This document shows, piece after piece, positions 11,821 to 13,202 of a stretch of DNA of 64,000 bases. Location of the stretch: NCBI RefSeq assembly GCF_002872075.1, contig NZ_PGGU01000007.1:62001-126000 (forward strand). Reading direction: 5' to 3'. Source of the DNA: Microbacterium aurantiacum. GTDB lineage: Bacteria; Actinomycetota; Actinomycetes; Actinomycetales; Microbacteriaceae. Made by a program: the position numbers and the translations under genes. Below the pieces are notes generated by a model. That model had not been told where the DNA came from. It saw only the letters and a program-made list of their open reading frames with translations, and did not search any database. The number at the start of each line of letters is the position of its first letter. The first letter of the stretch is position 1.

Positions 11821-12026
11821 GTCGTCTCGCAGTGATCTGAGCTGGTGGCACGGGCGGATGCTGCTGCGAGGACGACCCTCGCGGACCGCGGTACCACCTC
11901 ACGTGCTGCGCCTGGAGACGCAACCACTCTCACTGCGGCGATGACGGGCCTGCCCCGCTCGGTTCTACTTGCAGTCGCCTGCGTTCTTCCGAGAGCTCCC
12001 CGGTGATGGCCGGATCAGTGCTTGTG
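11821..12026 (-). promoter_or_regulatory. T-box riboswitch controlling ileS (translational type)
   Basis: Reading the minus strand: a very short stem I region with CCGGCCATCACCGGGGAGC, in which ATC is the likely isoleucine specifier; then a GGAAGAAC block; then the T-box bulge sequence GGTGGTACCGCGG (11898-11886), which pairs with the tRNA acceptor end. Downstream, GTCGTCCTCGCAG (11876-11864) pairs with CTGCGAGACGAC (11832-11821), which touches the ileS ATG; with one bulge this is a 12-bp helix covering the ribosome entry site. There is no T-run terminator, so control should be at translation, as described for actinobacterial ileS T-boxes. Confidence 0.88.
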
Positions 12027-12031
12027 CTCTC

Positions 12032-12037: not shown

Positions 12038-12077
12038 CGCGCAGGCCGCGCCTACGGCATCCGCGATCTCTACCGTG

Positions 12078-12161
12078 CGCCAGCCTCGGCCAGATTCGCT
12101 TCCTTCGGCCACATTTCCGGAATCCGCCCGAGCGTGACGTACTTGGCCGAGCGAGACGTAC
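12078..12161. repeat. Palindromic repeat, copy A (downstream of DUF559 gene)
   Basis: An 84-bp element that starts 3 bp beyond the DUF559 stop codon. By hand alignment it shares about 63 of 84 positions, without gaps, with copy B at 13119-13202, in the same orientation. It begins CGCCAGCCTCGGCCA and ends near TTGGCCGAG; the outer arms CTCGGCCA and TGGCCGAG are complementary, so it can fold. Confidence 0.7.
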
Positions 12162-12164
12162 AGC

Positions 12165-13007
12165 TCATGCGGCACGGTGCAGCCCCTGCGCCACCGCACG
12201 CATGATCAGGTCCTGCACCATCGCCCACTCGAATATCATCTGCGTGTACGACACTCGGATTACGTGATACCCCATGAGTTTCAGTTCGGCATCGTGGCGG
12301 ATGTCCTCGGTTCGCTGTGCCCCGACGTGATGCGCGCCGTCGATCTGCAGTACGAGCCGATCCCCGATCAGCGCATCGACGCGGTGGCCGGCGATCCAGA
12401 TCTGCACCCGGATCGGCACCCGCAGCCATCGCAATCGGTCCCGCAGATAGGTCTCCAGCCCCGCATCCGCGAACGGCATTGCATGCTCCAGAATGCGGCG
12501 GGCCGCCGGCCTCCACATGAATCCCTGCAGCGACTCGAGATTCACAAGCGACTTGTTGAGTGCCGATTCCCACGTCGCGAGCGCCTGTTCGAACGGTTCG
12601 CACTCGGCGATATACGCGAGGACATTCTCGATCGGGTCGACGAGCGCATCGGGATGGCGTGGGACGATCGGGCTTCCCCAGTGGATCTTCGCCTGCAACC
12701 GACGCCCGCTCGCGGCGTTCGGGGACAGCGCGACGTGCGGCTGACCAGTCGCATCATGCAGCCAGAGCCCAAGGCGCTGCGCCTGGGTCTGGCATGTGAT
12801 CACCACCCCATGACGCGCCGCACCGACCAGCACAGCGTCCGCTGCTCTCAACGCCAGCCACCCGCGGCGAGGGCGAACGAGCGCGCCGCTCGCGACCGCG
12901 GCGTCCACGGTTCTACGTGTGAAGCCTTGCTTGTTGATGAGAGCGGCGCGCACGACCCCGCCCAGGTCCATGATCAGCGCAATCAGCTCATCGAGGCTCC
13001 TTCGCAT
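12165..13007 (-). CDS. DUF559 / AbiEi-antitoxin-like domain protein
   Basis: A 280-aa protein. Residues 1-75 look like the winged-helix N-terminal domain of AbiEi-type antitoxins (LIALIMDLGGVVRAALI, RRTVDAAVASGALVRPRRGW). The C-terminal part resembles DUF559, a Vsr/restriction-endonuclease-like fold: VDALIGDRLVLQIDGAHHVG, DIRHDAELKLMGYHVIRV. The usual Glu before the DG motif is Gln here (LQIDG), so nuclease activity is doubtful. No toxin-like partner is adjacent. Two related palindromic repeats bracket the gene. The start at 13007 is favoured by CAAACT 6 nt upstream; an in-frame ATG at 13058 would add 17 residues. Confidence 0.75.
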   Translation of the reverse strand: MRRSLDELIALIMDLGGVVRAALINKQGFTRRTVDAAVASGALVRPRRGWLALRAADAVLVGAARHGVVITCQTQAQRLGLWLHDATGQPHVALSPNAASGRRLQAKIHWGSPIVPRHPDALVDPIENVLAYIAECEPFEQALATWESALNKSLVNLESLQGFMWRPAARRILEHAMPFADAGLETYLRDRLRWLRVPIRVQIWIAGHRVDALIGDRLVLQIDGAHHVGAQRTEDIRHDAELKLMGYHVIRVSYTQMIFEWAMVQDLIMRAVAQGLHRAA

Positions 13008-13118
13008 CGCGCCAGTTTGCGCCGGTCGCCATCCCTCGGTGGCGCGCAACTTCAGCATCCGTGGACAACTCGACAGATTCGGGACCTGTGCAGGAACAAT
13101 CGCGGGCGTCTTCGCTTA

Positions 13119-13202
13119 CGCCAGCCTCGGCCAAGTGCGCTTGCATCGGCCCTATTCCCGAGATCCGGCCGAGGGAAGCGCATTTGGCCGAGTGAGGTGT
13201 AT
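13119..13202. repeat. Palindromic repeat, copy B (upstream of DUF559 gene)
   Basis: The more symmetrical partner of copy A. The arms CTCGGCCAAGTGCGCTT and AAGCGCATTTGGCCGAG form a 17-bp inverted repeat with one mismatch (G-U in RNA), enclosing a second GGCC-rich inner pair. It lies between the DUF559 gene and the divergent pentapeptide-like gene, where either promoter could sit. Confidence 0.75.

Follow-up and report, generated by a model that had tools for sequence, protein, structure and literature searches.

The window, i.e., the whole 64-kb stretch of DNA analysed here, comes from a 3.83-Mb Microbacterium-like assembly (G000, referred to as the own genome). On its minus strand lies a DUF559/AbiEi-type gene (12165-13058, 297 amino acids as called), with ileS as its neighbour on one side and, on the other, a pentapeptide-like gene that has a sub-threshold pentapeptide-repeat match in Pfam. 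The initial annotation had placed this gene between two related palindromic repeats in the same orientation, each put at 84 bp, and the arrangement was recovered: the stretches 12078-12160 and 13119-13201, which start 1041 nt apart, match at 76% over 83 nt, ungapped and in the same orientation. Shifted by one base, these become 83-bp elements (12077-12159, copy A; 13118-13200, copy B), each of which is itself palindromic, with 58% self-complementary positions in copy A and 72% in copy B. Copy A follows the stop codon by 3-5 bp, as annotated, and copy B, the upstream palindrome, contains the previously described 17-bp inverted repeat with one mismatch, which can be read directly in the sequence; with 31 of 42 positions paired, it is the top palindrome of its size in the window, the runner-up having 27 pairs. 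The consensus of copies A and B and two further genomic copies, read on both strands, forms a nearly perfect palindrome of 83 bp; it comprises four 19-bp units, two direct copies in each half, every one of which starts with the word TCGGCC. The features of the locus are:

12077-12159, no strand: downstream palindrome (copy A), 83 bp long and degenerate, built from four 19-bp units that carry the word TCGGCC
12165-13058, minus strand: DUF559/AbiEi-type gene, from the open reading frame, Pfam and the structure model
12168-12470, minus strand: Vsr/I-Bth0305I-like nuclease-fold domain, residues 197-297, from fold matches and the residue survey
12474-13016, minus strand: predicted AbiEi-like two-domain DNA-binding part, residues about 15-195, from the 6y8q fold match and word-tracking residues
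13059-13096, minus strand: CTGCACA-N18-TTGTCCACGG module between the upstream palindrome and the gene, from the paired-motif count
13118-13200, no strand: upstream palindrome (copy B), the window's best palindrome of its size

A plain terminator or known RNA was rejected as an account of the palindromes: Rfam returned only a sub-threshold ileS T-box and a sub-threshold microRNA match on copy B, the latter taken as a chance match to a hairpin. The T-box-like ileS leader lies at 11865-12027 on the minus strand (40 bits against a gathering score of 93, E 5e-7). The pair of motifs that forms the module at 13059-13096 (CTGCACA ... TTGTCCAC) was found in 26 of 119 family upstream regions and in 2 of 209 control upstream regions; its second half resembles an actinobacterial DnaA box.

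The predicted protein and its nuclease motif

In the Pfam scan the protein matched DUF559 (PF04480) over the curated cut-off (E 9e-7, 29.1 bits vs 20.6), AbiEi_4 under its cut-off (E 3e-4) and, weakly, REase_MTES_1575; these were the only families found, and no Y1 domain was among them. NCBIfam assigned no family to the three proteins queried, and PADLOC gave weak matches to AbiEi. In the structure model (mean pLDDT 80.6, pTM 0.66), the N-terminal part matched the AbiEi antitoxin 6y8q with Z 8.9 over 174 residues (20-194; Foldseek E 8e-5), and the C-terminal 100 residues matched I-Bth0305I (3r3p, Z 9.4), NGO0050 (3hrl, Z 9.0) and Vsr (1vsr, Z 8.3). The N-terminal two thirds are predicted to fold like AbiEi and the C-terminal third like Vsr and I-Bth0305I, in keeping with the antitoxin-type winged helix and Vsr-like fold that had been proposed for this one gene. 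Translation may in fact begin at Met18 (13007): the model has low confidence over residues 1-13, and in many relatives the alignment opens only around residues 13-22.

DUF559 proteins typically have Glu at a position that is Gln238 here, within the motif LVLQIDG. This substitution, pointed out before, is a property of the family: Gln stands in 46 of the 50 aligned relatives that have a residue there, and Glu in the other four (L051-L054), which are distant own-genome paralogues. Gln is found, too, in the genes of the genomes richest in dispersed copies (L033, L034 and L038). As judged from sequence alignment, the Vsr/EDxHD catalytic set retains E202, D228 and D240, and E202, D228, Q238 and D240 are invariant across a 13-sequence alignment. 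Since the nuclease motif carries Gln in nearly all of these relatives, catalysis may be lost or altered, and the change from Glu to Gln speaks against simple catalysis.

The fold raises the question of a homing or defence nuclease, one that would cut at the word unless the word is arranged as in the resident palindromes, the flanks then fixing the gene or marking self. The nuclease domain is closest in fold to I-Bth0305I and Vsr, and PMC12907096 makes a Caulobacter DUF559 Vsr-like protein responsible for an SOS response in the absence of a methyltransferase. Against this, no methyltransferase or toxin gene directly adjoins the DUF559 gene in the window (the lack of an adjacent toxin partner had been remarked on from the start), and the gene interrupts no palindrome but has one standing on each side. 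We regard a nuclease of this kind as very improbable.

Private palindromes around family genes

Of 198 Microbacterium genomes sampled, 190 gave a match in the family search, frequently to more than one member, and the named relatives recovered with the protein were all from Microbacterium. Bracketing was assessed in 23 genomes, i.e., the own genome, with six genes, and 22 further genomes, which contributed 90 of 94 matches after four fragment rows had been dropped. The 350 bp upstream were compared with the 250 bp downstream for the 92 of these 96 genes that could be oriented (the other four include the sole gene of G045), gene starts being estimated from alignments. A repeat shared between upstream and downstream flanks at 35 bits or more was present at 64 of 92 family genes vs 1 of 179 control ORFs taken from those loci. 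Lowering the threshold to 30 bits gave 75 of 92 and 2 of 179, L113 and L162 being window-overlap artefacts that are counted at 30 bits and not at 35. Own-genome members, which are 100 to 29% identical to the query, showed the same arrangement with differing sequences: five of six paralogues were clearly bracketed (40-78 bits) and the sixth weakly (30 bits). The earlier reading of the locus as a mobile cassette or REP-type element is upheld as to a recurring gene-repeat unit, with a REP-like dispersal described below, but not as a rule for the whole family, since 28 of the 92 genes stay under 35 bits.

Among Actinomycetes DUF559 proteins are common: 59 of 118 class-level genomes gave a match. 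Outside the genus, 8 of 29 class-level DUF559 loci were bracketed at 35 bits or more, a count that excludes the own genome, has no control set and contains six short-contig loci that are possibly misframed; 12 of 30 loci were re-examined. A plasmid-borne element was dismissed, the only plasmid records being three from Tsukamurella at 30-31% identity.

The repeats are specific to their gene. Of 123 genes, 119 could be oriented, and in 86 of these 119 the upstream and downstream flanks matched each other at 35 bits or above. When upstream flanks were instead paired with the downstream flanks of other genes, matches were found in 2 of 346 pairs of same-genome paralogues and in 170 of 13,696 pairs drawn from different genomes. 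Chance resemblance of the flanking repeats is ruled out by these mismatched pairs together with the control ORFs. What is kept across the family palindromes is geometry: in the 172 flanks of those 86 genes, 9-base self-matches occurred at a shift of 19 in 44% (5% when shuffled) and at a shift of 18 in 33% (7% when shuffled), the next-highest shift reaching 15%. Judged from these flank comparisons, each family gene has its own palindrome word set in a common 18-19-bp spacing. The single 84-bp consensus that had been put forward (CTCGGCCA...TGGCCGAG) does not exist, and because every gene has its own word, the pattern would have escaped any search limited to that consensus.

Among 29 close relatives, palindrome similarity correlated with protein identity (Spearman 0.43 over 406 pairs), and no p-value is claimed because the protein pairs are not independent. 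After correction for identity, association peaked in two stretches, residues 36-65, where partial r reached 0.38, and residues 96-120, where it reached 0.41, with a third, smaller peak of 0.29 at residues 206-220, where the nuclease-fold domain starts; over residues 226-295 it ranged from -0.11 to 0.17. In a wider set of 52 proteins (Spearman 0.21) the same two regions peaked, more weakly (0.22 and 0.28). By this measure, word similarity appears to follow the nuclease core less closely than the winged-helix region (36-65) and a second loop, and such co-variation suggests that the protein reads, i.e., binds, its own palindrome.

Reading and moving need not be done by the same protein, and some other enzyme might move the palindromes, leaving the DUF559 protein as a simple binder or as cargo. 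The Gln in the nuclease motif would fit such a division of labour, and we know of no transposition by DUF559 proteins. It is difficult to reconcile with the finding that every DUF559 gene has words of its own, which vary along with the recognition region of its protein; moreover, the Y1 transposase, the only transposase family searched, was present in 0 of 12 genomes (Y1_Tnp, PF01797; the control was detected in 5 of 14). We consider this division of labour distinctly unlikely. The same search, together with the lack of a Y1 domain in the protein's own Pfam scan, also served to reject identity with a RAYT.

Dispersed copies and orthologous sites

Two palindromes, CGCGGA of G106 and AAGTCC of G001, were counted across 20 genomes as places at E <= 1e-5, compiled by hand and including copies beside the gene. 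The CGCGGA palindrome occupies 16, 13 and 16 places in G106, G069 and G183, the three genomes in which the ileS-site gene carries it, against 0-2 places in the other 17; the AAGTCC palindrome occupies 8 places in G001 (an array and a partial gene-side copy being counted as one apiece) and 0-2 in the remaining genomes. Of the six genomes with a matching gene, four thus have 8-16 places; everywhere else the count is 0-2. G127 and G143 carry AAGTCC genes yet show 1 and 2 places, those of G143 being its own flanks. For these two palindromes the counts indicate that dispersed copies tend to track the matching DUF559 gene, a link that the initial annotation had asked about, although G127 and G143 make this a tendency and not a strict rule. 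The dispersed CGCGGA copies align to a near-perfect 89-bp palindromic consensus. In a codon-composition scan of 40 copies, 14 lay within a coding-like frame and 26 had a coding-like 3' end within 150 bp, the two sets overlapping. Two solo copies were found in the own genome, one in the gap between aspS and a TauE-like gene and the other separating panB from a PadR-type gene, with gene names taken from the proteins. The single own-genome palindrome at the panB site has its counterpart in G001 in a tandem array of the 19-bp AAGTCC unit (L263, G001:C5:50286-50435). One solo palindrome of the own genome is chimeric, half CGCGGA and half TCGGCC (L276, G000:C7:32361), possibly a word change in progress.

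Sites with and without palindromes were then compared between genomes. ileS is a neighbour at 28 of the 30 closest family loci, yet the palindromes there differ, and among 30 sampled ileS loci a family gene was detectable within 1.5 kb in 8 and absent in 22. In G023, G002 and G040 only a short spacer separates the pentapeptide-like gene from ileS, in which no self-palindrome exceeds 26 bp or 24 bits. Behind the gene beside L260, a palindrome that begins a few bases past the stop codon is present in 3 of 30 genomes, and of the 27 loci that lack it, 5 contain self-palindromic sequence that is weaker and of a different sort. Between TauE and aspS, the position of a solo palindrome in the own genome, Microbacterium sp. 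NIBRBAC000506063 has a bracketed family gene (L065), and 2 of 21 loci at the aspS site carry a single palindrome of the DUF559-flank kind. The refuting conditions named in the initial annotation, once checked, did not overturn its reading: gene-free ileS and L260 sites mostly have no such repeat, and those two aspS loci have a single one. Most other aspS loci hold self-palindromes of other kinds, so that this site is not palindrome-empty in general. Behind aspS, six of the 21 loci (L190, L193, L201, L203, L205 and L206) have another kind of palindrome with GAGACCCC words, perhaps terminators or perhaps another repeat family. Filled and empty sites, compared by eye, are too diverged to show a target-site duplication.

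Palindromes also lie inside genes, whose types were read from sequence alone. In G106 and G069 they occupy orthologous positions, in frame, within two genes, one for a thiamine-pyrophosphate-type enzyme and one for an ABC-type ATPase. One loop of the ATPase is short (45-57 nt) in G095, G034, G115 and G008, contains CGCGGA palindromes in G106, G069 and G183, and in many other genomes contains self-palindromic sequence with other words; at E <= 1e-4, 8 of 27 genomes match a DUF559-flank palindrome in this loop, weaker matches being maybe chance. Across the genus the same loop holds palindromes of several different words (L380 of G000; L367-L393). Because occupied and empty sites exist, and insertions in frame, the comparison supports movement or loss of the palindromes and the gene cassette as units.

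At orthologous sites the words themselves can differ. Beside L260, the words are AAGTCC (three copies) and AAGGCC (one) in G001, AAGTCC and GAGTCC (two each) in G127, and AAGGCC (two) and GAGGCC (one) in G124; between G001 and G124 (L260/L278) the flanks and the palindrome centre are conserved while the words differ, and a second pair, L254 of G001 and L287 of G124, gives the same word contrast. The ileS-site gene has AAGTCC only in G001 and both AAGTCC and GAGTCC in G127. In G124, the flanks of the ileS-site gene (L027) are mixed (AAGTCC twice, GAGTCC once, AAGGCC once, GAGGCC twice), so its solo words agree with that gene only in part, in a comparison that uses L027 from among several family genes of G124. 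At the aspS/TauE site, G000 has TCGGCC and G001 AAGTCC, i.e., the words of their respective ileS-site genes. Taken across genomes, orthologous solo sites would seem mostly to match the word of the resident gene, and inheritance of the centre alongside differing words could reflect either copying or selection on binding sites.

This last point bears directly on a regulator, i.e., a DNA-binding AbiEi-type autorepressor with dispersed operators, an inactive nuclease and no mobility, whose words are selected as its specificity drifts. AbiEi autoregulates by binding inverted repeats, according to PMC7319586; the co-variation of the recognition region with the word, the Glu-to-Gln change and the inherited centre would all suit such a protein. 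It would leave several observations without a place: the second palindrome directly behind the stop codon, the in-frame copies within coding sequences such as that of the ABC-type ATPase, the coding-like 3' end near 26 of the 40 scanned copies, and the orthologous sites that have no palindrome. On balance we judge the regulator unlikely, while giving it real weight.

A proposed spreading repeat and its relation to known systems

We rather favour, with some reserve, the view that together with its two palindromes the gene forms a single unit of a REP/RAYT-like system, one that relies on an unrelated protein. In this protein the winged-helix part of AbiEi type would read a gene-specific word presented at 18-19-bp spacing in a four-unit palindrome. 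Palindromes bearing the word would flank the gene and, in several genomes, also occur elsewhere as dispersed non-autonomous copies, many of them close to stop codons and some lying in frame within coding sequences; the protein would keep the copies alike and let them spread. The simplest route would be for the nuclease-fold domain to nick or cut at palindromes or targets, followed by repair copying; it is this step, with the spread and copying driven by the nuclease fold, that we infer. A concerted change of words could arise through repair copying or else through selection on binding sites, the inherited centre fitting either. A wider version is more doubtful, and we offer it only tentatively: across the class, an AbiEi-type reader joined to a Vsr-fold nuclease would copy a private four-unit palindrome by cutting or nicking and repair, placing it behind stop codons and in frame in genes and rewriting resident copies to the new word when specificity shifts, as a self-spreading repeat that is the convergent, HUH-free counterpart of REP/RAYT.

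The system shares with REP/RAYT a gene bracketed by palindromes, a repeat class of its own, dispersal in genomes with the cognate gene and coevolution of gene and repeat, as these are set out in PMC2817692 and PMC3116915, and its own-genome paralogues are mutually divergent, as RAYTs are single-copy. It differs in the protein, which in RAYTs is a Y1/HUH tyrosine transposase and here an AbiEi-type winged helix with a Vsr-like fold. It differs also in the repeat: REPs usually number more than 100 (PMC2817692), whereas palindromes here are 83-89 bp long in four 19-bp steps and occupy 1-16 places in matching-gene genomes at E <= 1e-5. With the AbiE type IV toxin-antitoxin systems it has in common the N-terminal two-domain AbiEi fold (6y8q) of a protein that binds inverted repeats (PMC7319586). 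Unlike AbiE, it has no AbiEii nucleotidyltransferase toxin gene adjoining in the window, an additional nuclease-fold domain, a second palindrome behind the gene and dispersed palindromes. The C-terminal 100 residues share the fold of Vsr and of I-Bth0305I-type homing endonucleases, from which the protein is set apart by the Glu-to-Gln change in the DUF559 motif, the fused reader part and the flanking of the gene by its palindromes.

A further likeness is to the Rickettsia palindromic elements, which insert in frame inside coding sequences as palindromes do here. We know of no cognate protein for those elements, whereas the present palindromes resemble those beside DUF559 genes. The Rickettsia elements are named in a MITE review (PMC10969869). 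In the open-licence literature, judged by titles and the openings of abstracts, no description of an association between DUF559 and palindromes was found. The protein falls outside every system tested here, with a logic that converges on REP/RAYT. Protein and palindromes vary together, in what looks like an undescribed kind of spreading DNA repeat.

Pfam lists DUF559 as a domain of unknown function, and, if our reading is correct, private dispersed palindromes would give a DUF559 lineage a substrate. A second, unrelated protein lineage would then join the logic of REP/RAYT, and the family would offer many natural pairs of protein and word from which a DNA-recognition code could be read. The one-base difference between AAGTCC and AAGGCC at the solo sites of G001 and G124 makes both the specificity of the protein and the cause of concerted repeat evolution directly testable.
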